This document shows positions 1 through 64,000 of a DNA stretch of 64,000 bases, one piece after another. The position numbers and the translations under genes are program-made. Source of the stretch: Opitutaceae bacterium (lineage in GTDB: Bacteria; Verrucomicrobiota; Verrucomicrobiia; Opitutales; Opitutaceae); NCBI GenBank assembly GCA_028284235.1, contig JANQSC010000057.1:1-64000 (forward strand), given 5' to 3'. The notes below the pieces were generated by a model that ran no database searches, had not been told where the DNA came from, and saw only the letters and a list, made by a program, of their open reading frames with translations. Position 1 is the stretch's first letter, and each line of letters opens with the position of its first letter.

Positions 1-135
1 TCCACCCTTTGCGTTCTTCCAGGTGGAACGCGACGTCCCGGCGCGTTTTTCTCCAACAGAGTGTAATAAACTCCGACATCAGAGTACACCAATCAAAGCA
101 AATTGTAGACGACCTCACTCCCATGTCGCGGCGTA

Positions 136-1752
136 TCAACGAGAAGCCGGATCACTCCTCACTCTTTCCTCCCGCCACTCTTCTAGGACCGCCTTTTCTT
201 CCTTGGTCGCGGCGCGATTGCAGATTCCGCGCGCTTGGGCGATTACCTTTCGGGCCGGTTCGATTTGCACCGTGAGCGCTCGCTCCCCGTTAACGCGAAG
301 CGAGAAGATCGCAGCGGATCCGCTCATGCAATACGAGACGTATCCAGAAACGCAATGACGCATCTTCCGTCCTTCCTCGTACAATTCCTCTCCGGTAGCC
401 AACTCGATCATCTCCCATTCGCCATTTGGACCCCCTTGCCAATCCCAGCCGCGCTTGGGCCAAGTCTTGTTCTGCCAAGGGCGGGCGAGTTCCTGATGGT
501 AGCGATTCGCTCGCTCCAGCGCTCTCGTCGGGGAACGCCCCTTCCACGTAAACCGTTTTCCACCTTCGCGACGGGCTTCGGTGTATTCATGAACTGCCCA
601 CGCGAGAACGTCGTCGCACTGCTCGTCGGTGAACTCCAACTCGAATTGGCTCAACCAAAGAACCGTTTCGCGCCAAAACGCCTCGAAACCGCTTTCGCTC
701 AACCGGACGTCCTCGGGATTGGTCGGATCCCAGACAAAAACCGCGTTGCCCGACAAACGCTCGTATACCCGTTGCGAACCGCCCAAGCGTTTTACTTCGG
801 CAAACAGAACCGCCCCGATACAATCTGTATCCGCAGGAACCTGATTTAAATGCTCGGTATAGCTGCGCGTCAGCTTCCACCCAAAGCGCTTCGCCGCTTG
901 CTTGAGACTGCCGCCCTGCCCCATGAGGATAAACCAAACGAGCCACTTCAATTGATCCGGATGACAGTCCTCCATGTTCATCCAAGCTGGATACAAGAAC
1001 CACGGCGTATCGTACTGCACAAACAAATGGCGCAATAAACCGACATGGCCGCCCTCCGCGTCCCAGGCATTCGGCTCGCGCAGCCAAAAGGGGGCGAACA
1101 AGCAAATCAGCTTCGCGAGATTCGGGCTTCCCACCTGCCGGCCCAGCGTCTCGATTGTCTTCAACCCCCGTTGGTCGCCAATCGATGTCAACAGCTCGTG
1201 TCGCAACGTCTCCGAGTCGGTCGCGTAGGAGCGAATCAACGCGACGTGCCGATAAAGCCGATCCTCCAAGGAGAGGCTGTTTTTACGATCGACGCCGCTC
1301 GCGGCTTCCTCGCGCTCTTCACCGTCAATTGTCTGCCTAATATCCTCCAAGTGCAGCTTCCAGAAGCTCGGAAGCAGCACCTCTTGCAAAAGAAGCTCCA
1401 ATCGGCGCGTTTCGACTTCGCTCGAATTTGCGAAGCCTCGATCCTCATTGAAGCACGCTTCGCAACAATCCCAGCCCGGAGTATACGTCCACGGGTCATA
1501 AGAGAAATCCGATTCGTAGTCCTCGAGCGACGCCAGATTCTCATCGATCCCCGTCAATTGGTCGCGCTCCCGAATGTAGCCGCGCTTCAGCGCGTCCGGA
1601 CCTAAGGGCCGATGCCAATTATAGACCTTTTTCCCGTCCTTGCGCTGCTTCACGGTAGTAAGGAGTGAAGAGCGAGGGGTGAAGAGTGAAGGAAAAACGA
1701 AGGAGACCGACCGGCTTCCACCAGGGTTCCCAATCAACCCTCCCGCAATCAA
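136..1752 (-). CDS. PcfJ-domain-like protein; true start probably downstream of the annotated ORF start
   Basis: C-terminal GRKMRHCVSGYVSYCMSGSAAIFSLRVNGERALTVQIEPARKVIAQARGICNRAA resembles PcfJ-like proteins. The ORF N-terminus reads through a heptamer repeat (SLFTPRSSLL). Confidence 0.6.
   Translation of the reverse strand: MIAGGLIGNPGGSRSVSFVFPSLFTPRSSLLTTVKQRKDGKKVYNWHRPLGPDALKRGYIRERDQLTGIDENLASLEDYESDFSYDPWTYTPGWDCCEACFNEDRGFANSSEVETRRLELLLQEVLLPSFWKLHLEDIRQTIDGEEREEAASGVDRKNSLSLEDRLYRHVALIRSYATDSETLRHELLTSIGDQRGLKTIETLGRQVGSPNLAKLICLFAPFWLREPNAWDAEGGHVGLLRHLFVQYDTPWFLYPAWMNMEDCHPDQLKWLVWFILMGQGGSLKQAAKRFGWKLTRSYTEHLNQVPADTDCIGAVLFAEVKRLGGSQRVYERLSGNAVFVWDPTNPEDVRLSESGFEAFWRETVLWLSQFELEFTDEQCDDVLAWAVHEYTEARREGGKRFTWKGRSPTRALERANRYHQELARPWQNKTWPKRGWDWQGGPNGEWEMIELATGEELYEEGRKMRHCVSGYVSYCMSGSAAIFSLRVNGERALTVQIEPARKVIAQARGICNRAATKEEKAVLEEWREERVRSDPASR
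1663..1690 (-). repeat. degenerate heptanucleotide array (TTCACTC-type, minus orientation)
   Basis: gagtgaa gagcgag gggtgaa gagtgaa read in 7-nt units. Confidence 0.75.
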
Positions 1753-1859
1753 GCCAGATCCATCCCCGTAATTTCTCAGTTGATACTTTGGAATAAAAAG
1801 CGAACAATCAAAGGTCCAAAACCCCCGCCCCGCTCCAGCGCCTACAACCCAGAACCCAT

Positions 1860-1890
1860 TTCACTCTTCACCCCTCACACTTCACTCTTC
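1860..1890 (+). repeat. degenerate heptanucleotide array directly before the gdhA start
   Basis: ttcactc ttcaccc ctcacac ttcactc ttc, ending 2 nt before the ATG. Confidence 0.75.
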
Positions 1891-1892
1891 CT

Positions 1893-3248
1893 ATGGCCGT
1901 TTCCGATCACGTAGATTTTCCAACCTTCATGGAGGGCGTGAAAAAGCGCAATCCCGGGCAACTCGAATTCATCCAGGCAGTACAAGAGGTCGCCATGGAC
2001 ATATTCGATTTCATCGAAGACAAGGAGGCCTACCATAGCGCCCAGATTTTGCGGAGAATCGCCGAGCCGGACCGAGTGGTTTCCTTCCGCGTGTGCTGGG
2101 AGGACGACAACCACAACATCCGCGTGCAACGCGGCTATCGCGTCCAAAACAACAACGCCATCGGCCCATACAAAGGCGGCCTCCGCTTCCACCCAAGCGT
2201 AAACGAAAGCGTCCTCAAGTTCCTCGCCTTCGAACAGACTTTTAAAAACTCGCTCACTGGCCTGCCCATGGGTGGCGGCAAGGGCGGGGCCAACTTCAAC
2301 CCCAGAGGCAAGTCCGACGCAGAAGTCATGCGCTTCTGCCAGTCTTTCATGACCGAGCTCTACCGTCACATCGGTCCGGACATCGACGTCCCAGCGGGCG
2401 ACATCGGAGTTGGCGCTCGAGAAATTGGATACATGTTCGGCCAATACAAGCGCATCACCAACCGCTGGGAAGGCGTGCTCACCGGAAAGGGCCTCGAGTA
2501 CGGCGGCTCGCAAATGCGGCCCGAAGCCACCGGCTACGGAGCGGTCTACTTCCTGGAGAACATGCTCCACCACAAAAAGGACGCCATCGCCGGCAAAACC
2601 GCGGTCATCTCGGGATCCGGCAACGTCGCCTCCCACGCCGCCGAACAAATCGTCAAACAAGGCGGGAAAGTGCTCACCCTCTCCGACAGCGGCGGATTCG
2701 TGCATGACCCGGACGGGATTGACCAAGAGAAGATCGACTGGATCAAAGACCTTAAAACCAGCCGACGCGGTCGCATCTCCGAATACGCCGACGAATTCAC
2801 CGGCACCACCTACCACGAGGGCAAACGCCCATGGAACGTTCCCTGCGACCTCGCCCTGCCCTGCGCCACCCAAAACGAGCTGAACGAGCCGGAAGCCAAA
2901 GCGCTTGTCGACAACGGGGTGATCGCCGTTTCCGAAGGCGCCAACATGCCTACCACGCTCGACGGCGTACGCGTCTTCCACGACGCTAAGATCATGTACG
3001 GCCCGGGCAAAGCCGCCAATGCCGGTGGCGTCGCCGTTTCCGGCCTAGAGATGAGCCAAAACGCCGAGCGGATCAGTTGGAACCACGAACGCCTCGGAGC
3101 TATGCTCACCGAACTCATGGAGGGCATCCACAACAAATGCGTCGAGTACGGCGACCAAGGCGACGGCTACGTCGACTACGTCAAAGGCGCCAACATCGCC
3201 GGCTTCAAGAAAGTCGCCGATGCAATGCTCGCGTACGGAGTTGTGTGA
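1893..3248 (+). CDS. gdhA: NADP-specific glutamate dehydrogenase
   Basis: GYRVQNNNAIGPYKGGLRFHPSVNESVLKFLAFEQTFKNSLTGLPMGGGKGG and full-length hexameric GDH signature. Confidence 0.95.
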   Translation: MAVSDHVDFPTFMEGVKKRNPGQLEFIQAVQEVAMDIFDFIEDKEAYHSAQILRRIAEPDRVVSFRVCWEDDNHNIRVQRGYRVQNNNAIGPYKGGLRFHPSVNESVLKFLAFEQTFKNSLTGLPMGGGKGGANFNPRGKSDAEVMRFCQSFMTELYRHIGPDIDVPAGDIGVGAREIGYMFGQYKRITNRWEGVLTGKGLEYGGSQMRPEATGYGAVYFLENMLHHKKDAIAGKTAVISGSGNVASHAAEQIVKQGGKVLTLSDSGGFVHDPDGIDQEKIDWIKDLKTSRRGRISEYADEFTGTTYHEGKRPWNVPCDLALPCATQNELNEPEAKALVDNGVIAVSEGANMPTTLDGVRVFHDAKIMYGPGKAANAGGVAVSGLEMSQNAERISWNHERLGAMLTELMEGIHNKCVEYGDQGDGYVDYVKGANIAGFKKVADAMLAYGVV

Positions 3249-3401: not shown

Positions 3402-4682
3402 ATGCCCCTCTCGCCCCTTCGCCTCGTCGGAACCATCACGCTTATCCTCGCCCTCTGCCCCTTCGCCTGGTCAGCGCTCCACTCGCCTGGCGTCGATAGC
3501 GTCTCTGTCTCCGATACCGACTGGCCCTGGTGGCGAGGACCCAGCCGCGACGGTCACGCTCCTTCGCAATCGGTTCCGCTGCAATGGAGCGAAGACCAGA
3601 ACGTCGTCTGGAAAACCGACATTCCCGGCCGTGGTCACGCGTCCCCCGTCATTATTGGCGACCGAGTCTTCCTCGCGACCGCTGATGAAGGCAACCAGTC
3701 GCAACATCTGATTTGCATCGACAAACGCGACGGCGGAATCCGTTGGTCCACTCAAATCCATGAAGGTGGTTGGGAAGGGCGTATCCATGCCCGCAACACA
3801 CAAGCCTCCTCCACCGTCGCCAGCGACGGCGAACGCGTATTCACAGTCTTCATGCACGACAGCCATATCTGGCTTTCCGCCCTCGACTTCGAAGGCAAGA
3901 TTCTCTGGCAAAGGAAAGCAAGCGACTTCGCCTCCCACTGGGGCTACTCCACCTCGCCCGCGATCTACAAGAATCTAATAATCGTCGGCTCGGATCACAA
4001 AGAAGGCGGCAACCTCAGCGCCTTCGACCGAACAAGCGGCAATCTGGTCTGGAACACGCCCCGGCCCGCCATCCCCAATTACGCCTCTCCCGTCGTGCAC
4101 CACCTCGACGGCAAGGACCAACTGCTCGTTCCCGGATGCGAGCTCATGGCCAGCTACGATCCCAATAGTGGGAAAGAACTCTGGTCCACCGCAGCGACCA
4201 CCCGCGAAACCGTCGGCAGCGTCGTCACCGACGGTCGCAACGTATTCGCCAGCGGCGGGTATCCGAAAAATGAAACCAGCTGCATCACTGCAGACGGAAC
4301 CGCTCAAACCGTATGGACCAGCCCAATACGGGTCTACGCTCCGTCCATGATCGTTGTCGAGGGATTCCTGTACGCGGTCACCGACACCGGACTCGCCCAT
4401 TGCTGGAACGCCTCCAACGGCGAACTCATGTGGCGGGAGAAAGTGGGCGGCGACTTCAGCGCTTCACCGACATTGATTAACGGCAACTTAATTGTATCCA
4501 GCGAACAAGGAAAGACCATCGTGTTCAAAGCCAATCCGGAACGCTTCGAGCTGCTTGCCGAGAATCAGCTCGGCAACGAAATCTGGGCCTCGCCCGCCCT
4601 CAGCGAAGGGAAGCTCTATCTACGCGTCGCCCACACCGACGAGAATTCCCGCCGCGAAACGCTGTACTGCATCGGAAACTAG
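3402..4682 (+). CDS. PQQ-like beta-propeller repeat protein (exported)
   Basis: DWPWWRGPSRDGHAPSQSVPLQWSEDQNVVWKTDIPGRGHASPVI; repeated W-containing blades; signal peptide after Met at 3402. Confidence 0.85.
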   Translation: MPLSPLRLVGTITLILALCPFAWSALHSPGVDSVSVSDTDWPWWRGPSRDGHAPSQSVPLQWSEDQNVVWKTDIPGRGHASPVIIGDRVFLATADEGNQSQHLICIDKRDGGIRWSTQIHEGGWEGRIHARNTQASSTVASDGERVFTVFMHDSHIWLSALDFEGKILWQRKASDFASHWGYSTSPAIYKNLIIVGSDHKEGGNLSAFDRTSGNLVWNTPRPAIPNYASPVVHHLDGKDQLLVPGCELMASYDPNSGKELWSTAATTRETVGSVVTDGRNVFASGGYPKNETSCITADGTAQTVWTSPIRVYAPSMIVVEGFLYAVTDTGLAHCWNASNGELMWREKVGGDFSASPTLINGNLIVSSEQGKTIVFKANPERFELLAENQLGNEIWASPALSEGKLYLRVAHTDENSRRETLYCIGN

Positions 4683-4711: not shown

Positions 4712-7318
4712 ATGAACCGCCAGTCACACAGGTCTGCTTGCCCAGCGGCATTTTTTTTAGTGGTCACTTGCGGTATCCACTCTTTCGCTTCCGACGTCCC
4801 CGAATCGACCTTCCTGTTTCTCGAGAACCACTGCCTGGATTGCCACGATTCTTTCGAGCAAAAGGGAGGACTCGATTTAGAGTCTCTCCGCTTCGACCTA
4901 GGTGATCCGGATACAATGGCCACTTGGATAAAAGTCCACGACCGCGCTCGCGATGGTGAAATGCCGCCCAAGAAACGACGGCGCCCAAACAATGAGGAAT
5001 TAGCCGAGTTCACCGAATCGCTCGCCATTCCGATGATCGAGGCCGACCGCCAACGCATCGCCAACAACGGTCGCTCGAAGGTACGCAGACTGAATCGATT
5101 CGAGTACGAAAACACTCTGCAGCAAATCCTCGACGCGCCCTGGCTACTGGTTGCCGATCGACTGCCCGAGGACGGCACCGACCATCTGTACAATAAGATT
5201 GGCGAGCGTCTCGACGTCTCCCACGTGCAGATGGCCAAGTACCTGGAGACCGCCGAATACGCGATCCGAACCGCCGTCGCCACCGCCGCCCACCCTTCAA
5301 CTACACGTCGATACTACGCGCGTGAGGAAGAAGGTATGCAAAACTACATCCGCTATCGCCCGGGACAACAAGCGCCGACGCGGGCGGCGGTCCCCCTGTT
5401 GGGACTCACACCGCAGCCGGACGTCATTCGCGGAATTGAACCGATGACCGTTGGCGAATCCAACCCCGCCTTGCGCGAGCTGGAGGCGCTTGGATTCGTT
5501 TCCGGTACTTACACAGCCACTACGAAATACGATTTCAATCGAGTGGAAATCCCCATAGACGGCGACTACCGCATACGCCTCAAGACCTACACATACACCG
5601 CCGGACCCAACGGGCGGCGAGGTGGGCCCGACCACGGGCTCACCGGCGGCGACTCCAAATGGTGGCGACCCGACCGCAACGTCGCCTTCGCCGGAAAACG
5701 ATCCGAACCAGTCACGATTTACGCTCTTTCCGCCAGCCAGGACAGCAGGTGGCTGACCACATTCGACTCCTTTCCGGAGCCCAGCATCGCCGAACGCGTC
5801 GTCACACTCAAACACGGCGAACGCATCCGGCCCGACGCCGGCCGACTCGTGCGAACGCGGCCCGGATGGGACGGCAACCCCAACGCCACGCGAGAAGGCG
5901 TCCCTGGGTTCGCTTTGAACTGGCTCGAAGTCGAAGGTCCGCTCAGCGAAACCTGGCCGCCCGCCAGCTATCGCGCCGTTTTCGACGATCTTCCGTTTTC
6001 AGTCGACGAAAACAAGACGCTCACCGTCACCACGGAAAATCCGGACAAAGACGCTCGCCACTTGTTGAAGCGATTTCTTGAGTCGTCCTCCCCAAACTCG
6101 TCGCGAAAGAATACGAATATTGAATCCTACTATCGTATCTATAAACGCGCTACGGAACTAGGCATTCCTTTTACCGACGCCATGATCGCCGCGTTCGCTT
6201 CCGTCCTTTGCTCGCCAGACTTTCTCTACTTCGAGTCGAAAGCGGGTCGACTCGACCACAGAGCGATCGCCTCTCGGCTCGCGTACTTCCTTTGGAACAG
6301 CCCGCCAGACGGGCAGCTCCTCTCCAATCGCAACCTGCGCAAACCCGACGTCCGAGTCCAGGAAGCCGAACGAATGCTCCTCGATCCCAAGTCGGATCGA
6401 TTCGTCAACGCCTTTCTCGACTACTGGCTCGATTTGCGGGAAATCAACGCCAACACTCCAGACGCGATCTTGTATCCAGAATATTATCTCGACGACCAAC
6501 TCACCGAGGCGTCTCTTTTAGAAACGCGCCTCTTCTTCAAGGAACTCGTCGAACAAGACCTTCCCATTCGCAATCTCGTCGACTCCGATTTCACATTCGT
6601 CAACGAACGCCTAGCCCGGCATTACGGCCTGGAGCCCACCGAAGGGGTCCAGTTGCGCCGAGTCGCCCTTCCCGAGAATTCCGTTCGCGGCGGAGTTCTG
6701 ACCCAGGCCAGCATTCTCCGTGTCACCGCCAACGGCACGACGACTTCCCCGGTCGTCCGAGGCGCGTGGGTTGTGGAGCGGATTCTTGGCTTGGAAGTGC
6801 CTCCGCCACCGTCCGGAGTCTCCGCAGTCGAACCCGATACCCGCGGCGCCACGACGATTCGGGAACAACTCGACAAGCATCGCGAAATCGAGTCGTGCAA
6901 CGCCTGTCACCAGAAAATCGATCCACCGGGATTCGCCCTGGAGAGCTTTGACGTGGCCGGAGGCTGGAGGGATCGCTACCGGGCGAACGGCGATATCGGC
7001 GAACCCGTCAAAGGTCTCGGGAAAAACGGGCACGCATTCGAATTCCGACTCGCCGAACCCGTCGATCCTGCAGGAACGCTCTCAGACGGACGCGCCTTCA
7101 AAGACATCCAAGAGCTGAAAGCGCTGCTCCTCGAGGACGAACGCGTGATCGCCCGCAATTTCGTCACGCAACTCATCGTCTACGCGACCGGCGCCCCCGT
7201 CTCTTTCAGCGACCGGGCTGCCGTCGAAGCGATTCTAGACAGAAGCGAAGCAACGGCCTTCGGAACGCGACAGTTGATTCACGAAGTGATTAGAAGTGAC
7301 ATTTTCCAAATAAAGTAG
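4712..7318 (+). CDS. DUF1592/DUF1588/DUF1585 planctomycete-type cytochrome c domain protein
   Basis: CLDCH and CNACH heme motifs, RLNRFEYENTLQQIL (DUF1587-like), ALESFDVAGGWRDRYR (DUF1588/1585-like). Confidence 0.88.
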   Translation: MNRQSHRSACPAAFFLVVTCGIHSFASDVPESTFLFLENHCLDCHDSFEQKGGLDLESLRFDLGDPDTMATWIKVHDRARDGEMPPKKRRRPNNEELAEFTESLAIPMIEADRQRIANNGRSKVRRLNRFEYENTLQQILDAPWLLVADRLPEDGTDHLYNKIGERLDVSHVQMAKYLETAEYAIRTAVATAAHPSTTRRYYAREEEGMQNYIRYRPGQQAPTRAAVPLLGLTPQPDVIRGIEPMTVGESNPALRELEALGFVSGTYTATTKYDFNRVEIPIDGDYRIRLKTYTYTAGPNGRRGGPDHGLTGGDSKWWRPDRNVAFAGKRSEPVTIYALSASQDSRWLTTFDSFPEPSIAERVVTLKHGERIRPDAGRLVRTRPGWDGNPNATREGVPGFALNWLEVEGPLSETWPPASYRAVFDDLPFSVDENKTLTVTTENPDKDARHLLKRFLESSSPNSSRKNTNIESYYRIYKRATELGIPFTDAMIAAFASVLCSPDFLYFESKAGRLDHRAIASRLAYFLWNSPPDGQLLSNRNLRKPDVRVQEAERMLLDPKSDRFVNAFLDYWLDLREINANTPDAILYPEYYLDDQLTEASLLETRLFFKELVEQDLPIRNLVDSDFTFVNERLARHYGLEPTEGVQLRRVALPENSVRGGVLTQASILRVTANGTTTSPVVRGAWVVERILGLEVPPPPSGVSAVEPDTRGATTIREQLDKHREIESCNACHQKIDPPGFALESFDVAGGWRDRYRANGDIGEPVKGLGKNGHAFEFRLAEPVDPAGTLSDGRAFKDIQELKALLLEDERVIARNFVTQLIVYATGAPVSFSDRAAVEAILDRSEATAFGTRQLIHEVIRSDIFQIK

Positions 7319-7348: not shown

Positions 7349-8665
7349 ATGAACATCCTCTCGTCAGATCGCCGCATCACCCGACGCCAGCTCTTGCGTG
7401 GAGCCGGTGTCGCCATGGCCCTTCCGTTCCTCGAGGCGATGACGCCTCCCTTTACCCAAAAGCTGTTTGGCGCCACAACGAGCGAGAAAACGCCGAGGCG
7501 GATGCTAGCCATATGCAACAATCTTGGCGTCCTGCCCGATCGGTTCTTTCCCAATCAAGGCGGCCGTGACTATACTCTCTCTCCCTACTTGTCTGAAATC
7601 GCCTCCCACCGATCGGATTTCACCGTGCTCAGCGGCGTCTCGCACCCCGGGGTCGATGGGTCGCATTCCTCCGACATCTCTTTCCTAACCGCCGCGCCGC
7701 ATCCCGGAGGCGGCGGATTCCGCAACACCATCTCGCTCGATCAATTCATCGCGCGAGAGATTGGCCACTTGACGCGCTTTCCCTCCCTCACGCTTGGCGT
7801 CAATGCCAAACCTGGGAAACGCAGCCTGTCCTGGACCGACGCCGGCGTCCTCATCCCCTGCGAAAACAAGGCGTCGAACGTATACAAACAGCTTTTCCTT
7901 CAAGGCTCTCCAGACGAAGTGGAGAATCAAATCCGCAAACTGAACCTCGGCGAGAGCATTATGGATACAATCGCCGACCAGTCGAAATCCTTGAATCGAC
8001 GCCTCGGCCCCAGCGACCGGGACCGTATGGATCAATACACTACAGCCGTCCGCGAAGTCGAAAACCGAATGGCCCTGGCGCGGGAATGGGAACGTCTTCC
8101 AAAACCCGCTCCGCCTCAAGAAATGCCCGAAGACCCGACCAGCGACCAGCAGTACATGGAAAAGACGCGTCTCATGTACCAAATGGCCCGGCTCGCCTTC
8201 GAGACCGACTCCACTCGCAGCATCACCCTGCTACTCGACAGCAACAATTCGCCGACGATCGACGTGCCTGGCGCGGAAATCTCCGACCGCTATCACAGCC
8301 TGTCGCACCACGGTAGGAATGAGAAGAAACTCGCCCAGCTCGACGCCATCGACCGTTCCCACATGAAGCTAATCGGGGAACTCCTCGACGACTTGAAAGC
8401 GTCGCCCGACCCCGACCGCAGCCTGCTCGAAAGCTCCCTCGTCCTCTACGGAAGCAACTTTGGCGACGCCAGCAAGCACACCACCGACAACATGCCCATC
8501 CTCGTGGCCGGCGGTAGCCTGCGCCACGGACAGCACCTCGCCTTCGACCGAGACAACAACTACCCGCTACCGAATCTATTTGTGAGCATGCTTCAGGCCA
8601 TGGAGATCGAAACCGATCAATTCGCCTCCGCGACCGGGACGATGAGAGGCCTCGATCTGCGATGA
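7349..8665 (+). CDS. DUF1552 domain-containing protein
   Basis: RRQLLRGAGVAMALPFLEAM Tat-like leader; CNNLGVLPDRFFPNQGGRDYTLSPYL; follows a DUF1592 gene as usual. Confidence 0.88.
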   Translation: MNILSSDRRITRRQLLRGAGVAMALPFLEAMTPPFTQKLFGATTSEKTPRRMLAICNNLGVLPDRFFPNQGGRDYTLSPYLSEIASHRSDFTVLSGVSHPGVDGSHSSDISFLTAAPHPGGGGFRNTISLDQFIAREIGHLTRFPSLTLGVNAKPGKRSLSWTDAGVLIPCENKASNVYKQLFLQGSPDEVENQIRKLNLGESIMDTIADQSKSLNRRLGPSDRDRMDQYTTAVREVENRMALAREWERLPKPAPPQEMPEDPTSDQQYMEKTRLMYQMARLAFETDSTRSITLLLDSNNSPTIDVPGAEISDRYHSLSHHGRNEKKLAQLDAIDRSHMKLIGELLDDLKASPDPDRSLLESSLVLYGSNFGDASKHTTDNMPILVAGGSLRHGQHLAFDRDNNYPLPNLFVSMLQAMEIETDQFASATGTMRGLDLR

Positions 8666-9133: not shown

Positions 9134-9407
9134 TAAGAGACTGTCTAATAAATCCGAATATGCGTCGCAGCTGGCATTTTTCGCATTTGGCGCGGCGCCA
9201 ATGCCCGTAGGGCCTTGGCCCTCGGCGGCAACGCCGCCAAGCGCGAAAAAGGACGCTGCCCCGAAGGGTTCGCCCCCAGATAGGCCTGGCGCGGCGTTGC
9301 GCGCATTGGGGATAGCCATTCCATGGATACCCCGCAATGCGCCCGTCTTGCGGCAGGCCTATCTGGGCACGAACGACACATATTCCGATTTATTAGACAG
9401 TCTCTAA
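9134..9407. mobile_element. MITE (non-autonomous, IS5/IS1031-like ends), element 9137-9404 with TAA duplications
   Basis: 26-bp TIRs gagactgtctaataaatc(c/g)gaatatg with one mismatch; TAA at 9134-9136 and 9405-9407; nested 14-bp inverted repeat 9275-9288/9354-9367; no coding content. Confidence 0.85.
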
Positions 9408-9467: not shown

Positions 9468-12400
9468 TTAAAACCTAAACGAATTGGAGAGGCTCCAAGT
9501 GCGAGGAGCGCCCGCTTTCCAGATAGCGACGCCGTACTCCTCCGAATTGGTAGAGCGAACCGGTATCAACTCGTCCGCATCTGTATTCAGATTCTTAACG
9601 CGCAATTCTATGTTCCAACGGACTTTGTCGTCCCAGATCTTCCTTCCATAGCGCAGCCATGCGTCCGCATATATCTCAGCAGGCGTAATGTGCGGATTCT
9701 GGATGTCTTTCATGATCAATCCGTCTTCCACCCAGGTCGGGTATCCAATGGACGCGCCTTGCTGCCAACGAACGGCTGAACCGACGCTGAAGCCCTTGAG
9801 GGCGCCTTCGTTGAAGCTGTAGTTGGTAATCAAGTTCGCCCGCCACTTGCGCTGCTCGGGAGAGGTCTGGCCTTCAAGCGCTTTTTGCACGCGGAACGGC
9901 GCGTAAACTCTCGACTCCATCGTTCCGGACACCAGGTAGCCTTCATACAGATTCGGACCGCCAAAGTATTGCGGAGGAGATGTTCCCTCTACATCCAATT
10001 CCGTGAAATTGAATGGCTGATCATAAATCGCGCCACCATGCCCGATGTACGGATCGAAGATTTCCATCAATTCCGCCAGACGTGGCGAATAGTTCGTCTT
10101 CACCGTCTCTTGCTTCGCGACGTTCAACGCGATTCGCCACTTGTCCGTCGGATTGAAGACGATTTCCGCCTCGAATCCTTCTGAAGCTACGTCTTCCGTA
10201 TCTGTAACGTTGATGCCTGTTCTTTCAAATCCGGTCTCGTCTGGATCCACAGAAAACGCCGTATTGTAAGCGAAGTCGGGAACCTGCTGCCGGAAGAAGC
10301 TCAAAGCGTCCATCGCTACATCGTAGTTCGGCATGGGATCCCATACAGTACCGTCTTCGTTCAAGTGAAGCGTCGCTGGATCTGTCGAATGGTCGTACCA
10401 CTCCGTGACTCGACCCATCGCCTCCGTACTGAGCAGGACTCCATAAATGTGCATCAACTGCTGATTCACATAGGTGCTATACAAGTTCACCTCAGCCGGC
10501 GAATTCAAGAGATTGGTTTCGAATTTGTTTAAACGCACATGCATTCTGCGATCAAACAGACTCATGGTAATACCATACTCTTTCGTCTCACCTGAAGGCG
10601 AAGCGACATTGGCGCCGTAGAAATCAAGCGCGGATTCGCTGAGCGAGAAATTTTCAGACTCGCCATAGTAGGCGCTCAGTTCAACGGATTCCGGCAAGAA
10701 TTTGCTGGGTACGTGGCCCACGATGGACCAAGTGAAGGTATTGATATCGCCTTCGTCTTCATCGTTGTCGAGCACGAGATCGCCCGGCAAACTTACAGCA
10801 GTCACTGGATCCTCGTTCGAATTGTACGATCGAAAGTCGATTTTGTCTTTGCGCCATCCGGCGAGACCAACCAAGTGCCTGTCGAGGAAATAGCTATTCA
10901 ATATTGCCGATTGAGATTCCACCGACTCATACCGCTCGGTGTAGTTGTCGAGCAATGGTTCGTATCCAAACGACTGGAGCTCGTAGCCGCCCGTATTTAC
11001 ATTAAAGGATTCGACCGTTGAAGTATGACCTCCTCCCCAAAGCTGCGGAGCCGTCAATGGATTCAATCGAACATCGTCAATGGAATCGAGATCGTATACG
11101 CTATCATCGCTGATATAGACAATATAGTTATTGAAACGGCCCCAGTGCGCTCCCACATCCCCAGCGCTTATGTTATTCCCGATCGCTTCAGGGCTATCCG
11201 AGTACTCTCTGTAAACCGAGTCAGTTCGAGATTGGTCGTATTTGTTAACCAGACCGGTAATAGTGTGGCTTCCCAACACTCTCGATAGCATATTATCGCC
11301 AAAATAGTCTTTGGTATCTATATTTAGGAAAGCAGTCGCCCGTGTGGATTCCCGCCTGTCAGAGTACGATTTAAAAACCGTTTTTCCCTGCACGAAAGTG
11401 CGGCCATAGTTGGGATTGGGCCTCCCTTTGCGGAACTCGTTAACGTCTACGAAAATCCCCGAGTACCCCTGGAAGGGCACGAAGGACTCGTTATCATAGC
11501 TTTGCTCGTCATGCACAAGCTCGAAACCCGCCTTGCCATCCCAGAGCACTTGCTCAAGGGAGAGATTGTATTGATCCCAATCATCGTTCTGAAACGCCGC
11601 GTATCCAGAAAGCAAGTTCTCTGTAAAATCGAATTGCTCGAGATTCGAAACACTCGTTGGGGGAAGCGAGTTGTCTATATTTCGCCATGGCTGCACGCTG
11701 CCGTAAAAGTGATAGGTCGGCCATGTATTGTTGCCGCTCGGATCGACTTCATAAGGGAAGTCGTGCCCCGCCTGGAAACCATAACCCCACTTCGCTACTC
11801 TGCTCTCAATCGCGGTAATGCCGTCCCTTCCCGTCGTCGGGTCAGCCGAGTCGTGCTCGAAAACCGTGAAAATCGCCCGGCTGGCATTTGCATGATTGAA
11901 GGTTCTTTCATCATTTCCTCTTCCAACCGCGCCAAGGTTCCAGTTCACATTCTGCCGTAGAATCCCTAAACGGGCTAAATCGTCCGCAGCGTCAATCACC
12001 CCATCGTTGTTTACATCGCTGACGTTTATCCAGTTGTTGTTCGTTCTGAGATCCGCATAGAACGAATTGAAAGCGACGGTGTCGTAGTCGCTCGGGACCT
12101 GAAGCGGATTGCCGTTGACGTCCAAAACGCCGTTTTCGTCCAGCAATTCCTGCATCAACTCCCTCTTCACTCCAAGCTGCTCAAAGAAGTAGGGAAGCGT
12201 ATAGCCCGGGCCGATTTGGCTTGGACGATTGCCATCGCGTTCGCCTACCTCAAAAAAGCCACGGAGCGTCGCGCCTTTCCAGAGCTTCCCTGTAGCCGTT
12301 CCATAATAGCGCACCTGATTTTGGTAGGCTTGTTCCTGGCGAAACCTCTTTTCCTCGTTCAGATAGGAAAAACGCGCCGCGAGACGATCCTCCAGAAGCA

Positions 12401-13710: not shown

Positions 13711-14766
13711 TTACTCCCTTGAGCGAAGTACAATCACGGAATCGCCCATTCGTTCCGCTTCAATGTTCTTCGTTATTTCCAGAGCGCTTACAAACGCGTC
13801 TATATTGTTCGGGCTAATATTGACGGACATTTCCTCGTCGCGAATGGAAGGATCCTCAATGAAGATCTTCCTACTATTGCGCCGATTCAACTCCATCACG
13901 ATCTCCTCCAGAGGAGTCGCGTTGAAAACTAACAACTGATTCAGCCAAGTGAGCTCCTTCTCGATGTCGGCCTCCGACACCAATTCCACCTCAGGCAAGC
14001 GAGACCGGCGACTCGAACTGACAACCGATCTTTGGCCCGCGCTCAACTCCTGGACCGTCGACCCAATCGCTTCCACCTGCAATACGGGTTCACCCGCTTT
14101 TGCGGAACCAAGCATCACCCGCCCCTCGGTCACCAGCACATCGACCGAATCGCTTTCAATCTGTACGTTGAACATCGTCCCGACCGCCTGCACCGCAACG
14201 CCTCGCGCCGTCACTACAAACGGCCTCGCCTCGTCTTTGGAAATCGTAAAATGAGCCTCGCCGCGAACGAGTTCTACATTCCGGCTCGTCTCCGTATAGC
14301 GCACGAACGCCTGGGATTCCCGGTTGAGTTCAACGATGGAGCCGTCCTCCAAGACATGGCGTTCATACGATTCGCTGAACTCCCCCTCGGCCAATCTCTC
14401 CGCCTCCGGACTTCCAGTGAAAATCCACATCCCGAGCCCCAATGCCAACACCGCTGCAATCGAAGCAACCCACTTAGTCATCCAACTCGCATACACACGC
14501 TTCTCCCTTGTCTCCGTATCCAACAAGTCAGGATTCGGCGTGAGACTGTGCTCGGGACGCCAGTCGGCTAGAATGTCTAGTTGCTTCCAGGTCTTCTGAC
14601 GATTCGCGTACGCCTCCGCGTGGTTCGAGTCTTCGCCCAGCCAATCCAGGAATTCGTCCTGTTCTTCACTTGAGAGACCATAGGCTTGCCGGACCACCCA
14701 TTCGGAGGCCTCTCGATTGACCCGAACCAATCCCGGTTCGGCTGAGTCTGCCGTTTCCTTCTTCAT
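13711..14766 (-). CDS. FecR-family anti-sigma factor
   Basis: EEQDEFLDWLGEDSNHAEAY, single TM, FecR domain (ERHVLEDGSIVELNRESQAFVRYTETSRNVELVRGEAHFTISKDEARPFVVTARGVAVQAVGTMFNV). Confidence 0.93.
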   Translation of the reverse strand: MKKETADSAEPGLVRVNREASEWVVRQAYGLSSEEQDEFLDWLGEDSNHAEAYANRQKTWKQLDILADWRPEHSLTPNPDLLDTETREKRVYASWMTKWVASIAAVLALGLGMWIFTGSPEAERLAEGEFSESYERHVLEDGSIVELNRESQAFVRYTETSRNVELVRGEAHFTISKDEARPFVVTARGVAVQAVGTMFNVQIESDSVDVLVTEGRVMLGSAKAGEPVLQVEAIGSTVQELSAGQRSVVSSSRRSRLPEVELVSEADIEKELTWLNQLLVFNATPLEEIVMELNRRNSRKIFIEDPSIRDEEMSVNISPNNIDAFVSALEITKNIEAERMGDSVIVLRSRE

Positions 14767-15798: not shown

Positions 15799-17143
15799 TA
15801 AATCCCAATCGGCCCAACCCTTCAATCACTTCCGGACACGACATAAACAGGTCCCAAAACAGACCCGTCCGGTAGTTCTCGATCATCACCACTATCGGCC
15901 CCTGGTCGATGGCCAAATATCGTGGAGCGACCCAGCCGCTGTCGGGACGAAACGCGTCGTAGAACCCAGCCGGACCCACCAAGACGTCACCGTAATCCCG
16001 GAAGAACCCGCGGATCGCCGCGAGCGACTCCTCCGGCGTGTACGGAATCACGCAAATCGCCCCGGTCGGGGAAATCACGCCAATGTCCCGGTCCGGCCGA
16101 TGGGACGCGTAGCCGATGTGGTCTTTTTTCGGTGAATAACTCGAAGTCATCCCCCAGCAACTCTCGCCGTATCCGCCAAAGCCATTCGGATTCCGCAAGC
16201 AATAGCGATAGTGCATCAACGCCTGGTTCCGATTGAGCTCCCAGAAATTCCCGTAGGCGTCCTCCAGATTCCGAGGATCCAATCCCATATAGGAATACGC
16301 CGCCCAAAACAGCGGGCCGACCGGCGAATCGTTGTCGTGGTAGTGGTCGAGCACGCGATCGAGCCCGTAGAACGTGTCGTCCGCCTCGATCTCCCCATTT
16401 CGCGCCCAACAGTGATGGTAGACTTCCGGATCCATCGAATGAGTGGGCGACGAAGCGGCTAGCACGTGAGTGATGAGCGTCTCATTGTATCCATGCAACG
16501 CGAAATTCTTTTCGAATCCATAATTTGGAGACCAGTGCCAATAGAGGTTTTTCGTTCCATTGGTATACCAATTCCAGTCCACTTCCCGCCACAAGGTGTC
16601 AATCCGATCCGCCAGCGCCTTTTCCGCCGGATCGTCGGGATCGCAATATTGCCGGACGCACAAGAGCCCCTGAATCAGAAACGAGGTTTCGACCAGATCG
16701 CCGCCGTCGTCGTTCGGGCTGAACGGCTTGACCCGACCCGTTTCGCCATTCAACCAATGCGGCCAAGCCCCATGGAAGCGATCCGCGGTTTCCAGAAAGC
16801 CCACGATTCGCTCCAATCGCTCCATTCCCTCTTCCCGCGTGATATACGACCGTTCGATGCCGACAATCAGGGCCATGACGCCAAAACCTGATCCGCCCGT
16901 AGTCACGATATGGGCGTCATCGAGCGGATAGATTCCATCCGGATGGTAGCGCTCGGGAGCGAGCCCGGAATTCGGTTCGGCGAAGTCCCAGAAGTACCGG
17001 AACGCTTGGGACTGAGTCGCGTCCATCAGCTCCTCGTCGGTCGCCGTTTCTCCAAATTTCTTCCATTCGCTTCCGGCATCGCTGCAACCGGAAAGAACAA
17101 GCAAAAGGCCGACGACGGCCGTTAAACTAAAAGTCGATTTCAT
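15776..17143 (-). CDS. glucoamylase-family / GH144-like glycoside hydrolase lipoprotein
   Basis: LSGCSDAG lipobox; DATQSQAFRYFWDFAEPNSGLAPER...TTGGSGFGVMALIVGIERSYITREEGMERL. Confidence 0.8.
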   Translation of the reverse strand: MKSTFSLTAVVGLLLVLSGCSDAGSEWKKFGETATDEELMDATQSQAFRYFWDFAEPNSGLAPERYHPDGIYPLDDAHIVTTGGSGFGVMALIVGIERSYITREEGMERLERIVGFLETADRFHGAWPHWLNGETGRVKPFSPNDDGGDLVETSFLIQGLLCVRQYCDPDDPAEKALADRIDTLWREVDWNWYTNGTKNLYWHWSPNYGFEKNFALHGYNETLITHVLAASSPTHSMDPEVYHHCWARNGEIEADDTFYGLDRVLDHYHDNDSPVGPLFWAAYSYMGLDPRNLEDAYGNFWELNRNQALMHYRYCLRNPNGFGGYGESCWGMTSSYSPKKDHIGYASHRPDRDIGVISPTGAICVIPYTPEESLAAIRGFFRDYGDVLVGPAGFYDAFRPDSGWVAPRYLAIDQGPIVVMIENYRTGLFWDLFMSCPEVIEGLGRLGFRGVNSEQ

Positions 17144-32266: not shown

Positions 32267-34324
<2,058 letters not shown>

Positions 34325-42881: not shown

Positions 42882-42987
42882 AACGATATCGCTAATGCCT
42901 GGATACAGTCCCGCACGCCAGCGAATTATTCGCGCTGGCGAAGGTGGTGGATTTGCTTCGGTCTCGCATAAACCCACAACCTAGTAG

Positions 42988-43709: not shown

Positions 43710-45359
<1,650 letters not shown>

Positions 45360-47991: not shown

Positions 47992-49743
47992 TTATCCCTT
48001 CAAATGGGGCCGTTTCCGGGCCAACACCTCGACGACCTCTGGCAAAGACAGCGTGTTGACAACGTTTTCCGCGGTCAGCCAACCTTTGCGAGCAACATTC
48101 ACGCCGGCTTCCACAAAGTCGAAATGCTCCGGCGCGTGGGCATCTGGATTGATACTCGTCGCCAAACCCTTCTCCGCCGCCTTTCTCCAAAACCGCCAGT
48201 CCATGTCCAGCCGATACGGATTCGCGTTCAATTCTATAATCACATCGTTCGCGATCGCTGCATCGACTATTTTATGAGTGTCCACCGAGTACGGCTCCCG
48301 CCTCAAAAGGAGTCGTCCCGTTAGATGCCCCAGCATCGTCGTCGCTGGGTTTTCGATCGCTCGAATGATCCGGGCGCTCATTTCCTCTTCCGACTGTGAA
48401 AACGACGAGTGAATCGAAGCGACCACGTAGTCCAGTTTCATCAATATCGACTCATCGATATCGAGCGACCCATCCGGAAGAATGTCGCACTCGTTACCAG
48501 AGAACACATGCGTCGAAAGCCGCTTCGACGCATTCAGTTCTTCAATACGTTCAATCTGTTCCAGCAATCGCTCCTCATCGAGTCCATTGGCTTGGAAACT
48601 GGCTTTGGAATGATCCGCGACACCCCAGTACTCCCAGCCGCGCGCCTGCGCCGCCTCGGTCATCTCCTCCAAACTGGCGCGACCATCGCTGGAGGTCGTG
48701 TGATTGTGAAACGTCCCTTTGAGATCCGAAACTTCCAGCAGTTCCGGAAACCCGTCCGATTCCGCCGCTTCCAATTCGCCCAGCCCTTCGCGCAACTCCG
48801 GTGGGACAAACTGCAAGTCCAAGTGCTTGAAAATATCCTCCTCGCTATCCGCCTTCAGGCTACTCTCCTCGAAACTCTCCGCGTCGACGGATTTCAGTCC
48901 CCACTCGCTCAAGCTGTATCCACGCGACAATGCGCGCTGGCGCAACAACACATTGTGGTCCTTCGATCCGGTGAAGTGGTGCAACGCGAAACTGAATTGC
49001 TCCGAAGGCACCACTCTCAAGTCCGCTTGCAGTCCGCTTTCGAAACGCACGCTCGCCTTAGTGTCCCCTTTCGCCGTGACCTCGCGGATATTGTCCTGAG
49101 CGACAAACCAATCCATAACGGGCCCAGGGTTCGAGGACGCCACAATGAAATCCAAGTCGCCCACGTGCTCCCGCTTGCGACGAAAACTCCCCGCGTGCGA
49201 CGCCCGCTCCACTTCGGGCAACGCCTGCAGGCCCTCCAAAATTGGTTCCGCCACTGCTCGAGCGTTCCACCAAAGATGACGCTTTCCGTAGGCTTCCCGG
49301 TTCTTGATTCCCTCGGCAATCTTGTCCTGCGACTTCTTCCCGAATCCCTTGAGTTCCGCTACGCGATTCGCCTCGCAGGCCTCCTGCAACTCCTCGATCG
49401 ACGACACACCCAAAATCTCGTGGAGCGACTTGATCTTCTTCGCTCCCAAACCCGGTATTTCGAGCATGGATACAATTCCCGGATCCACCGACGCTTTCAA
49501 CTTCTCGTAGAACTCGAGCGAACCCGTTTTTGCCAAGGTTTCAATCTTCTCTACCAGCGCTTTTCCAAAACCAGGCACGTCGCCCAAAGTTCCTTCCTCA
49601 ATCAGCGTATCGAGATCTTCCTCCAAAGTCTCCAGTTTTCGAGCGCCATTGGAATACGCCCGTATCTTGAACGGGTTCTCCCCTTTGAGCTCAAGCAGCG
49701 TAGCGATTTCGTTAAGAACGTCCGCGATTTCCCGTTTGTTCAT
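47992..49743 (-). CDS. polX: bacterial DNA polymerase X with C-terminal PHP domain
   Basis: [71 protein letters not shown]. Confidence 0.94.
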
Positions 49744-51206: not shown

Positions 51207-52192
51207 AGCGTTTCAAAATCGTCGAGAGCAGGCATCCCTGTTCGTTGCAAAAAAGGTCCAAGAATAGCGGATACACCGCTATCGGCAAACAAAGCGTCGA
51301 CTCCGAATCCAAGCGGACGGCCCCCTTCTCCCGCTTCAATCGCAACCGAAAGCGCAGCCGCCGTCCCCACCATCGTCTCCAACGCGCTTGAAAGAGCCAC
51401 CGACTCCCTTTCCCCGCTTTTTAGCTCGTTGATCAAACTGCGCCGCCCTCCAGACAACGACGGTTTTACGACGAATACGCCATCCCAGTGGGCGTCCTTC
51501 CAGCGTTTCAAATCGTCGACCGAGCAAACCGATTCGTCCAAGGCGATGGGCGTCGGGTAGTCCTGGGCTAAGGCCTGCATGGTTCGCTCCTCGCCCTTTG
51601 CCAAGGGCTGTTCCAGAAACTCGGCAGGCGTGTCGGCGAGAAACTCGAGCCAGTCGCGGGCGGCTCGCAAGTCGAGACTCCCGTTAGCGTCCAGCCGCAG
51701 CGGAATCGCGCCATCGGTCCGTTCGAACAAATCGCCGACCATCGCTCGTTCCTCCTGAAACGAGCCTTTTCCGATCTTGATTTTTAGACACCGATACCCT
51801 TCATCCATCAGCCGCTCCAACCGCTCCGTGTCACCCAAATTCGGAAGCAAGCCGCACACCGCCCAGGGCTCATCCAATTCTGGTGGATACGATTCTGACT
51901 CGAGCATTGCGAACGCGGACTCGATTCCGAAGCGGAGGCATGGAAACGATTCCAGATCCGGCAAAATCGCGCGGTATTCAATTTTCCCCTTCAAGTCAGC
52001 GCACGCCGCCAAGGCCGAAACAAACGACTCCGAGCCGAATGACTCGATCGGAGCCACCTCTCCAAACCCGGTTCGCCCGTCGCCGTCACGCAGTCGCAGA
52101 AGGATCCCCGATCGCCGCGCCATCGCGTCCGAAGCGGTCGCGTACGCCTGCGCGAATGGCCTTCGGTACGCTTTGAACTCAAAATCAACCAT
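51191..52192 (-). CDS. menC: o-succinylbenzoate synthase (enolase superfamily)
   Basis: YRCLKIKIGKGSFQEE; IPLRLDANGSLDLRAARDWLEFL; PIALDESV. Confidence 0.88.
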   Translation of the reverse strand: MVDFEFKAYRRPFAQAYATASDAMARRSGILLRLRDGDGRTGFGEVAPIESFGSESFVSALAACADLKGKIEYRAILPDLESFPCLRFGIESAFAMLESESYPPELDEPWAVCGLLPNLGDTERLERLMDEGYRCLKIKIGKGSFQEERAMVGDLFERTDGAIPLRLDANGSLDLRAARDWLEFLADTPAEFLEQPLAKGEERTMQALAQDYPTPIALDESVCSVDDLKRWKDAHWDGVFVVKPSLSGGRRSLINELKSGERESVALSSALETMVGTAAALSVAIEAGEGGRPLGFGVDALFADSGVSAILGPFLQRTGMPALDDFETLWDTV

Positions 52193-52291: not shown

Positions 52292-53860
52292 ATGGCCAGT
52301 CCGAGCGCAACCAACTTCGACGAAAACCAGTTTTACCAGAGCGCTGACGCGTTCTTCCACGACCAGCGCGATACCGCCCTCACCTACGACGATGTCTCGC
52401 TGGCAACCAACTTCAGCGACATCCTCCCGAGGGACACGAAGCTGGAAACGACGATTTCAGGCCGCATCGCGCTGAACATCCCGATCATCTCTTCGGACAT
52501 GGATACCGTGACCGAGTACGACATGGCGATCGCCATGGCCACCAGCGGCGGAATGGGAATCATCCACTACAATATGCCCTACCGCGAGCAAGTCTCGCAA
52601 GTGACGCGCGTCAAATACCACATCAACGGCCTCCTTCCCAACCCGATCACGGTTTCTCCCGACAGCTTCATCGGCGACGTCATTGAGCTCATCGAAGAGA
52701 AGAACTACAAGTTCCGCACCTTCCCCGTCACCGAACAAGACGGGACGCTCGTCGGCTTGCTCGGCAGCCGCGTCGTCAAGTCCCGCTACGGCCACATAAA
52801 AGTGGCGGACGCGATGGACCCGCAGTCTCAAGTGCTCAGTCTCAACGAAAAGGAGATCAAACCCAACCCGATCGAAGTCGCCGACAAGTTCTTCAGCAAT
52901 CATCTCGGAATCAACAAGCTGCTAGTCGTCGACGACCACAACAAGCTTAAGGGACTGGTAAGCATCTCGGACATCGAGCGAATCATCTCCGAAAAGCAAA
53001 GCGTTCTCAAACCCGCCCGCGACTCCGACTTCCGCTTGCTCGTCGGCGCCGCGATTTCGACTGTCTGGAAGAGCGACGGGACGCTCGACAAAGACGCCAT
53101 CCTCGAGCACGTCACCAATCTCCGTAATGAGCGAGTGGATGCAATCGCAGTTTCCGCCGCCCATGGACACAGCAAGGGCATCGGCCAAGTGGTGAAATTG
53201 CTGCGCAGCGAATTCGACGATCTCACGCTCATCGCGGGCAACGTCACCTCCGGCAGCGGAGTCGAGTACTTGGCCGAATGCGGAGCCGACGCAATTAAAG
53301 TCGGCCAAGGCCCCGGATCGATCTGCACCACGCGCGTCGTCGCCGGAGTCGGAATTCCCCAGCTCTCTGCCCTCTACAGCGCCTCGAAGGGAGCGCAGAA
53401 AAAAGGCGTTCGCATTATCGCCGACGGCGGCATCACCAAATCCGGGGACATTGTCAAGGCCATGACCCTTTCCGACGCCGTCATGCTTGGCGGTCTCCTC
53501 GCTGGAAGCCGAGAAGCGCCCGGCGAAATCATCGAGATCAACAACAAGCTCTACAAGCAGTACCGCGGAATGGGAAGCATCAGCGCCATGAAAAAAGGCT
53601 CCGCCGCCCGCTACGGCCACGACAAGACCGACACCGCTCGCAAGCTAACCGCGGAAGGAATCGAAGGCATGAAAGAAGTGCGCGGATCCGTCTTGAACAT
53701 ACTCGCGGAAATGGCCGGCGGCCTCCAATCCGGCATGGGCTACAACGGAGCCAGCACCCTTTCGGAACTCAAAGCGAAAGCCCGATTCGTCCGCATCAGC
53801 TCCGCTGGAATGAAAGAGTCCGCCCCGCACGACGTGATCGAAGTCGCGAAACGCGGTTAG
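52292..53860 (+). CDS. guaB: IMP dehydrogenase
   Basis: [62 protein letters not shown]. Confidence 0.96.
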
Positions 53861-58908: not shown

Positions 58909-58911
58909 GAC

Positions 58912-62392: not shown

Positions 62393-62536
62393 TTTCTAAA
62401 TGCCTGCCGCTCGTTCTTAAAACGCGATAAAACAACCCCAGCGACCCGTAAGTCCAGCCTTTATACTGTTCCCCGATCCAAGGGCCGCCCAACTGGACGT
62501 CTCAAGTTTGTCCAGCGCGATCTCGAATGCGGCGCC

Positions 62537-63481
62537 CTAATGCGCGCCGTTGTTCGATCGAGTCGACCCATTCGAGCCCTCGGACACGGCAGAGTGACTA
62601 CCATTGCCGTTGGATGCGGACTCTACTTCGACCGGCTTAAAGGCCAGCGTAATTTCCTCGGCCACCACCGCTTTTTCTCCGTTCACAGTGATCTGGCCAG
62701 AGAATACCGCCAGCGGGGCCCGGACGCGTTTCAATTTAATGTTCAGGTCTAGCGAGTCACCCGGCTTGCAAACCCGGTGGCAGCGCACGCCGTCAACTCC
62801 CGTGAAGTAGACTTCCGACATGTCGATCGAACCGCCGATTTCGCTGGGAGGATTTTTCAGGAGCGAAAATACGGCCAACTGTCCGAGCGCCTCCAGCATA
62901 ATGGACGCGGGGAACACCGGGTTGCCTTTGAAATGCCCTTCGAGAAAGGCTTCGTTGCCCGAGATCGAGTAGCGACCTTTCGCTTCCCGCTCACTCAAAT
63001 TCGCCTGCTCTAAAAACAAAAACGGCTCCTGCTGAGGCATGACTGCCGCCACCTGCTCGATGGTATAAAAATCGTCCGACTCGCCGCTCTTGAATCCCGT
63101 GATCTTCTCCTGGATGAAGACCTTCAAGTCCCCGATGGAACGCAGGTTCAGAAGCTCTTCGTTCTTGATCGAAACACCCAGGGATTCTTCTACCATCATG
63201 ATCGCCTCGATCATCGTCAAAGAATCCAGGCCTAAATCCTCCATGAATCGCACCGAATCGTCTCCGCTTCTCAACTTGCTGATCACGTCCGGATCGAGGA
63301 AACGCTCGACAATTCCCAGCACGATGACCGGCAACAACGAAACATCGCCCGAGGAACGATACTTCAACGCGGCCTCCAAAGTCTCCGGCGAGCAGCGCTT
63401 CAGGGTGTCCCTAAGCAGGGCCTCGCTGCCCGTCTTTGGCGTTAAGGCGGATTCCGCCTTGGTGGTTCTCTGGTTTGACAT
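62537..63481 (-). CDS. fused acyl carrier protein and FabZ-like hot-dog dehydratase
   Basis: ACP motif MEDLGLDSLTMIEAIMMVEESL; hot-dog EGHFKGNPVFPASIMLEALGQLAVFSLL. Confidence 0.85.
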   Translation of the reverse strand: MSNQRTTKAESALTPKTGSEALLRDTLKRCSPETLEAALKYRSSGDVSLLPVIVLGIVERFLDPDVISKLRSGDDSVRFMEDLGLDSLTMIEAIMMVEESLGVSIKNEELLNLRSIGDLKVFIQEKITGFKSGESDDFYTIEQVAAVMPQQEPFLFLEQANLSEREAKGRYSISGNEAFLEGHFKGNPVFPASIMLEALGQLAVFSLLKNPPSEIGGSIDMSEVYFTGVDGVRCHRVCKPGDSLDLNIKLKRVRAPLAVFSGQITVNGEKAVVAEEITLAFKPVEVESASNGNGSHSAVSEGSNGSTRSNNGAH

Positions 63482-63699
63482 TGCGAGGCAAGCAAAGGTC
63501 GCCGTGAGTCATTTGTAAATCATAAACATGGTCAACGGTTGTAGATTGACTTCATCTACCTAACGTCCCTTGGGGCACCGTTGCGTCAGACTACCCGATT
63601 TCCCCGAAGTCGCCCCAAGCGAGATTTATAGCTTGTGAAGCCGTCTCGCGGTTCGAATGCTCTCTCGACTCCTCCCGCTCGCCGGCCGAATTCCGCGCG

Positions 63700-64000
63700 A
63701 TGATCCCGAACAAAGAGACTCCCATTTTCATTATTTCCCACGAGTTTCCGCCCACGCGGGGAGGCGTCGCCACGTTCACATACGAAATGGCCCGGGCGCT
63801 CGCCCAACTCGGATACTCCGTCGAGGTATGGGCCCCGCAATCGGGAAATGCCGACGACACAGCTCTTCCTTTCGCTGTAAAACGTTTGAAATTAAGAGGT
63901 TCGAGAGATCTCGCCTGCCAAGTACGCTTGATTCAGACCTGGATCGCCCACCGGGCCGAACTGCGCGACGCCATGGTCTACCTAACCGATTCGGGACCCA
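63700..64000 (+). CDS. glycosyltransferase family 4, N-terminal fragment running off the window
   Basis: MIPNKETPIFIISHEFPPTRGGVATFTYEMARALAQLGYSVEVWAPQSG; open to the window end and therefore absent from the ORF track. Confidence 0.8.
   Translation, partial: MIPNKETPIFIISHEFPPTRGGVATFTYEMARALAQLGYSVEVWAPQSGNADDTALPFAVKRLKLRGSRDLACQVRLIQTWIAHRAELRDAMVYLTDSGP

Follow-up and report, generated by a model that had tools for sequence, protein, structure and literature searches.

The question raised by the stretch studied here is why one asymmetric word of seven letters, TGGATAC (GTATCCA on the other strand), is so frequent in it, and what might read that word. The stretch, called the window below, comprises 64,000 nucleotides (positions 1 to 64,000 of contig JANQSC010000057.1, assembly GCA_028284235.1) from a marine member of the Opitutaceae (Opitutales, Verrucomicrobiota), a relative of Pelagicoccus mobilis. 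An exact count gives 40 copies, 18 on the plus and 22 on the minus strand; 38 of the 40 lie inside open reading frames (ORFs) and two in non-coding DNA. The over-representation is real and solid as an observation, and a Chi-type signal is the favoured candidate for its cause.

Dinucleotide shuffles of the window contain 2.75 +/- 1.6 copies, with a maximum of 7, and by trimer Markov score TGGATAC is the top over-represented 7-mer. Markov models of orders 0-4, trained on sequence in which the motif was masked, put the expectation at 3-6.5 copies; a sequence-only reading of the window had estimated roughly 6 from composition. That reading had also named a third-order Markov model, a codon shuffle and the genome-wide count as checks that could overturn its claim, and the excess stands in each. 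Unmasked, the third-order model expects 7.0 copies in the window. The last 11.5 kb (52507-64000) are without the word; gaps above 9.6 kb number four genome-wide with 2.1 expected, and the 11.5-kb gap is near expectation.

The whole genome, 6.13 Mb in 81 contigs, holds 2,648 copies, about one per 2.3 kb. They divide into 1,317 forward and 1,331 reverse, in agreement with the lack of obvious strand bias claimed earlier. The reversed word, used as a control, occurs 210 times and the count thus does not fall to background; since it includes TAG, this control is biased towards low counts, and the codon and Markov folds (about 3.5-4.5) are therefore the fair figures. TGGATAC is again the top 7-mer in a 459-kb sample of the genome (243 copies vs 51 expected), and in a sample of 859 kb there are 411 copies vs about 90 from a masked third-order Markov model. 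For the codon null, ORFs were called in the 859 kb and synonymous codons were shuffled within each gene, so that proteins and codon usage are preserved. Coding DNA contains 360 copies vs 102 expected (z 25), which ranks the word first among 8,192 strand-pooled 7-mers; the best non-overlapping word has a z of 14. Enrichment ranges from 2.6 to 9.4 fold over the codon phases and is found in all six, as the frame independence proposed earlier predicts, and intergenic DNA holds 50 copies vs about 11-14 expected. Chance, base composition and Markov structure of orders 0-4 are rejected since the counts are far above all of them, and amino-acid and codon usage are rejected by the synonymous shuffle. 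The earlier claim that amino-acid usage is insufficient is borne out by every test, the word being a genome-wide one at the DNA level.

The motif is wider than first described: an A/T-rich stretch at positions -5 to -1, TGGATAC, and then a purine. Around the 411 copies A/T is favoured most strongly at -4 to -2, and at +1 a purine is favoured and T avoided; one-off control words do not have this flank preference. TGAATAC (3.3x) and CGGATAC (2x) stand out from the other one-letter variants, most of which show no enrichment; this suggests a recogniser that tolerates T/C at position 1 and G/A at position 3. Words of 7 to 9 letters are enriched 4-9x. In the 859 kb the 9-mer TTTGGATAC occurs 76 times vs 8.5 expected and the 11-mer ATTTTGGATAC 14 times vs 0.5, far below known uptake sequences.

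Spacing of the copies is exponential, that is random, with a mean of 1,856 bp and a standard deviation of 1,840. By GC skew, 213 coding copies are leading and 147 lagging (59% leading); the codon shuffle predicts 63.8/35.3 (64% leading), and intergenic copies divide 29:22 by replication strand. No leading-strand preference beyond the codon-use prediction is seen in the 859-kb sample. The density per kb is 0.11 in divergent intergenic DNA, which is near background, 0.38 in co-directional and 0.63 in convergent. Close inverted pairs (<=20 bp) show no excess genome-wide, 6 being present vs about 5.7 by chance.

The tally of the sequence-only reading, about 38 copies (18 plus, 20 minus), was nearly complete. 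Copies at 3781, 4773, 29846 and 46656 had been omitted, the one at 7962 had been placed at 7972, and the other positions were at most one nucleotide off. A copy described as lying in a miniature inverted-repeat transposable element (MITE) does so, 9324 being within the element 9136-9405, and a copy given as intergenic at 34366 is intergenic at 34367..34373. All copies of TGGATAC in the window are as follows.

340..346, minus strand, in ORF 136-1752
988..994, plus strand
2426..2432, plus strand, in the glutamate dehydrogenase gene
3781..3787, minus strand, absent from the earlier list
4494..4500, minus strand
4773..4779, minus strand, absent from the earlier list
6472..6478, minus strand
7962..7968, plus strand, earlier given as 7972
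9324..9330, plus strand, non-coding, in the MITE; present in 3/3 MITE copies examined
9741..9747, minus strand
10962..10968, minus strand
11601..11607, minus strand
14516..14522, minus strand
16487..16493, minus strand
19495..19501, plus strand
19712..19718, minus strand
19767..19773, plus strand
19931..19937, plus strand
22252..22258, plus strand, conserved in 3/4 aligned congeners
24630..24636, minus strand
24971..24977, minus strand
25123..25129, plus strand
27236..27242, minus strand
29846..29852, minus strand, absent from the earlier list; conserved in 8/9 congeners
32938..32944, minus strand, conserved in 7/7 aligned Pelagicoccus and in part of the genus
32972..32978, minus strand, conserved nowhere else
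34367..34373, plus strand, intergenic
37733..37739, minus strand
37860..37866, minus strand, conserved in 6/7 aligned relatives
39491..39497, plus strand, at an ORF start
42061..42067, minus strand
42424..42430, plus strand
42900..42906, plus strand
43920..43926, minus strand
46564..46570, plus strand, in dnaK
46656..46662, plus strand, in dnaK; absent from the earlier list
48916..48922, minus strand, in polX
49467..49473, plus strand, in polX; conserved in 2/2 aligned congeners
51884..51890, plus strand
52500..52506, plus strand, in an IMP dehydrogenase-like gene; final copy of the window

Conservation of the word was analysed by aligning the window genes with those of 19 relatives, the DNA identity being about 70-80%. 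Where the amino acid of a codon is conserved and its wobble base lies in the motif, the codon is identical in 94 of 150 cases vs 58.9 predicted by the same codon at other places; the z of 6.3 is optimistic, as the comparisons share sites and ancestry, and the effect is spread over many separate sites. Conservation of amino acids under the motif is ordinary (221 vs 216 expected). Because the codons and not the amino acids are conserved beyond expectation, the DNA word itself is maintained, and selection targets this word and not the protein. Within the genus the 7-mer is retained in 46% of aligned cases vs 16% for composition-matched words. Sites such as 29846, 32938, 37860 and 49467 are retained, and other sites turn over.

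Strong enrichment is confined to one clade of the Opitutaceae, Pelagicoccus included. Among 244 family genomes, about 300-560 copies/Mb are found only in the genera g1 (11/11), g9 (1/1), g13 (2/2) and g56 (8/8), the last of which includes P. mobilis; the other genomes mostly have about 10-100 copies/Mb, with a few intermediate ones up to about 230. No comparable family was found elsewhere in the order in a draw of 105 genomes. Against the codon shuffle no 7-mer ranks higher than TGGATAC in Pelagicoccus, g13 and other g1 species; the word is enriched 3.7x in G115 (second-ranked 7-mer) and 2-2.6x in four other genera, and it is not enriched in G012, G013 and G017. The g9 genome gives 2.2x from a sample of 32 kb only, and its whole-genome count is high (2,379). 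The flank pattern recurs in several genera; the relatives with AddAB yielded 13-28 copies each, few for judging a preference. A search for other dialects in samples of about 60-100 kb found no single dominating word in other Opitutaceae genera.

The window's own genome has a recC-recB-recD operon (L230, contig C7: 2709-6311, 6185-9802 and 9799-11544), in which all three products exceed the curated NCBIfam cut-offs and Pfam agrees. RecC homologues are present in six further clade genomes, giving seven from three genera, with two confirmed above cut-off. PDDEXK_1 nucleases were surveyed in 12 motif-rich (309-563 copies/Mb) and 9 motif-poor (14-217/Mb) genomes of the family. A RecB-type ORF of about 1,160-1,260 amino acids is found in 12/12 motif-rich genomes, the call in G001, G006 and others being made from a weak PDDEXK_1 match in a RecB-sized ORF. 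The motif-poor genomes (9/9) have an AddA/AddB-like signature instead; a profile check of two of them gave AddA/AddB-like best matches, below the curated cut-offs, and the remaining genomes were assigned to RecB or AddAB by ORF length and domain match only. That this lineage has recC-recB-recD, and the rest of the family sampled AddAB-like genes, is a lineage-specific difference in the break-repair enzyme.

The RecC of this genome aligns with Escherichia coli RecC across 1,014 residues, and the E. coli residues affecting Chi recognition were taken from PMC5959072. Q38, T40, Q44, W70, D133 and R186 are substituted in 7/7 clade RecCs and L64 in 4/7. The replacing residues are invariant at three positions (L38, R44 and I186) and either P or S at position 40, in proteins sharing 37-55% identity with the RecC of the window genome. 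L134, D136 and R142 are retained in the clade and D705 in the window genome's RecC; the residues of the Chi site do not show which word is read. The RecC of Pseudomonas syringae retains the listed E. coli residues, and its Chi is close to that of E. coli (PMC5959072). In this genome the E. coli Chi is not notably enriched (48 vs 28 expected) and the P. syringae Chi is not enriched (67 vs 70 expected). Given the replaced residues and the lack of enrichment of these two words, the clade RecBCD probably has a Chi different from that of E. coli, and TGGATAC is the word that dominates.

The chances are about even that TGGATAC, with its A/T-rich 5' flank and 3' purine, is a Chi-type sequence for the RecBCD of this Pelagicoccus-like clade. 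The enzyme would enter at a double-strand break and then unwind and degrade the DNA until RecC, the predicted reader, met TGGATAC on the 3'-ended strand. RecBCD would then halt degradation and load RecA, and the cell's own chromosome, with a site every 2.3 kb or so, would be repaired instead of destroyed. Chi is GCTGGTGG in E. coli, GCTGGCGC in P. syringae, GCGCGTG in L. lactis and GAAGCGG in S. aureus. Like the Chi sequences of RecBCD and AddAB, TGGATAC is short and asymmetric, is 3.5-4.5x in excess on both strands and in coding as well as non-coding DNA, accompanies RecBCD, and falls within a density of one per 2-5 kb. Its density and fold are near the published range, the E. coli Chi occurring once per 4.5 kb with a 4-8x excess and the P. 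syringae Chi once per about 3 kb (PMC5959072). Selection on the DNA word and not on the protein also speaks for this reading. Of the roles listed in the sequence-only reading, the repair or recombination kind is the most supported, by the co-occurrence with RecBCD and the Chi-like density and fold; polar segregation is disfavoured.

Several points weigh against a Chi role. RecBCD and strong enrichment may go back to one origin each, both in this clade, and their association may be a single coincidence; as one evolutionary event may be involved, their co-occurrence is not statistically independent evidence. Unlike the known Chi sequences, TGGATAC is unrelated in sequence and G-poorer, its A/T-rich 5' flank is no known Chi feature, and the Chi-site residues of the clade RecC differ. 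Moderate enrichment is also seen in some AddAB-bearing relatives (G115 3.7x, others 2-2.6x). A leading-strand preference beyond codon use is also absent, which counts as neutral because several known Chi sequences are without skew: the skew is slight in several species, and the orientation bias of the E. coli Chi along the replichore is not universal (PMC5959072).

A DNA uptake sequence, suggested earlier, is rather unlikely. A surface receptor of the type IV pilus or competence system would prefer (A/T)-TGGATAC-R, and through biased uptake and recombination the word would accumulate where it is tolerated. This would fit the non-palindromic core, the A/T-rich flank, the random spacing and near-random orientation in coding and intergenic DNA, the density near background in divergent promoter regions and several-fold higher in convergent ones, and the conservation of sites between species, with turnover. 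ComEC, DprA and PilT are present, but equally so in motif-poor relatives (27/30, 31/31 and 31/31 family genomes, respectively, motif-rich and motif-poor alike), and because they are family-wide these genes fail as a discriminator. The fold of only 4-9x, the inverted terminator-type pairs at chance level and the presence of the word in every copy examined of a mobile MITE also speak against uptake. The uptake sequences of Haemophilus and Neisseria are about two orders of magnitude above chance, and inverted pairs of known uptake sequences, common though not universal, are reported as terminators. Neisseriaceae and Pasteurellaceae are the only families known to use uptake motifs (PMC12616744). 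TGGATAC resembles their DNA uptake sequences and uptake signal sequences in its thousands of copies with random spacing and orientation in coding and intergenic DNA, its restriction to a family and its A/T-rich element beside the core; unlike them it has a shorter core, a far lower fold and no terminator pairing. That the clade is a third, independently evolved lineage using (A/T)-rich-TGGATAC-R for preference of kin DNA in natural transformation is unlikely. A Chi-type role is preferred over uptake because of the size of the enrichment, the co-occurrence with RecBCD and the absence of terminator pairing. In the window the density of the word in syntenic vs non-syntenic DNA is 0.52 vs 0.78 per kb, with no depletion in the latter. 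Two Pelagicoccus genomes have comEC and pilT no more than about 7 kb apart (L241 = G214 contig C23; G213 contig C22), possibly as part of a competence cluster.

It is quite unlikely that the word is the site of another genome-wide DNA protein, such as an orphan methyltransferase or a nucleoid-associated or chromosome-organising protein. An asymmetric word with a flank preference common to several genera, and the tolerance at positions 1 and 3, would suit recognition by such a protein. No candidate was found here, methyltransferases not being surveyed; restriction-modification usually depletes its site rather than enriching it, and the spacing and lack of orientation bias disfavour ter-, ori- or strand-specific organisers. 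The analogy drawn earlier with cyanobacterial HIP1 is weak. TGGATAC is likewise clade-restricted and over-represented genome-wide, but it differs from its own reverse complement; HIP1 (GCGATCGC) is a palindrome and is linked to methyltransferases recognising its inner sequences (PMC4390886).

That the excess follows indirectly from codon-pair bias or mutational context bias, with no recogniser, is very improbable. Several GC-rich relatives do show 2-2.6x, TGGATAC being not unique there but among the few per cent of 7-mers that rank highest. Against this reading, the enrichment extends to intergenic DNA and to every one of the six codon phases, the synonymous codons that the motif covers are clearly more conserved than matched codons, and most one-letter neighbours, C-to-T at position 7 included, show none of the depletion that a repair bias predicts. 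Terminator hairpins are rejected by the inverted pairs at chance, and a promoter or transcription-factor site (near background in divergent intergenic DNA), a strand-polar segregation motif (no replication-strand bias beyond codon use) and an RNA-level signal (219 sense and 138 antisense copies) are disfavoured.

Copies of a longer repeat are rejected as the source of the word, since the flanks are unrelated and only 3/411 copies lie within 200 bp of TTAACAGGAT-type element ends. The MITE at 9136-9405 is 270 bp long with 32-nt inverted ends (AGAGACTGTCTAATAAATCCGAATATG...). It has copies elsewhere in the genome (L154 and L155, 92% and 83% identical) and a fragment in L015; the full copies (3/3) keep one TGGATAC in the same place. 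No rve-family transposase is found in this genome. A second intergenic repeat family, with the ends TTAACAGGAT / ATCCTGTTAA, has 31 matches in 859 kb (L009-L028, L149-L168) and is absent from the window, and GCCCTAC and ACAGGAT are further enriched intergenic words. In G017 (L035, L145, L146) the 9-mers AGCGTGCCC, GGTCACGAC and GGAGGGGCA are strongly over-represented in 60 kb and much weaker in coding DNA, and are probably an abundant intergenic repeat. Within 15.5 kb, G032 (L048) has many copies of CGATGACAA, TCCTCGCGA and similar words, which look like a tandem or dispersed repeat. Window positions 30395-34324 hold a GyrB/ParE-like gene and an adjoining ORF of 685 amino acids. The GyrB/ParE-like protein has 81-92% identity in the Pelagicoccus clade, and next among the matches listed are Bacteroidota (about 67%), which suggests a transfer between phyla.

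The literature searched yielded neither a Chi nor an uptake sequence of Verrucomicrobiota, and no relevant paper contains the word TGGATAC. If TGGATAC is a Chi sequence, the clade would be a natural experiment, in that its RecBCD takes the place of the AddAB of relatives and has a new target word and a remodelled RecC pocket. It would then help to explain how DNA is read by RecC, a point that PMC5959072 leaves open. If TGGATAC is an uptake sequence, it would have no precedent beyond two proteobacterial families. Either reading, if true, would aid genetic work in this little-studied group.

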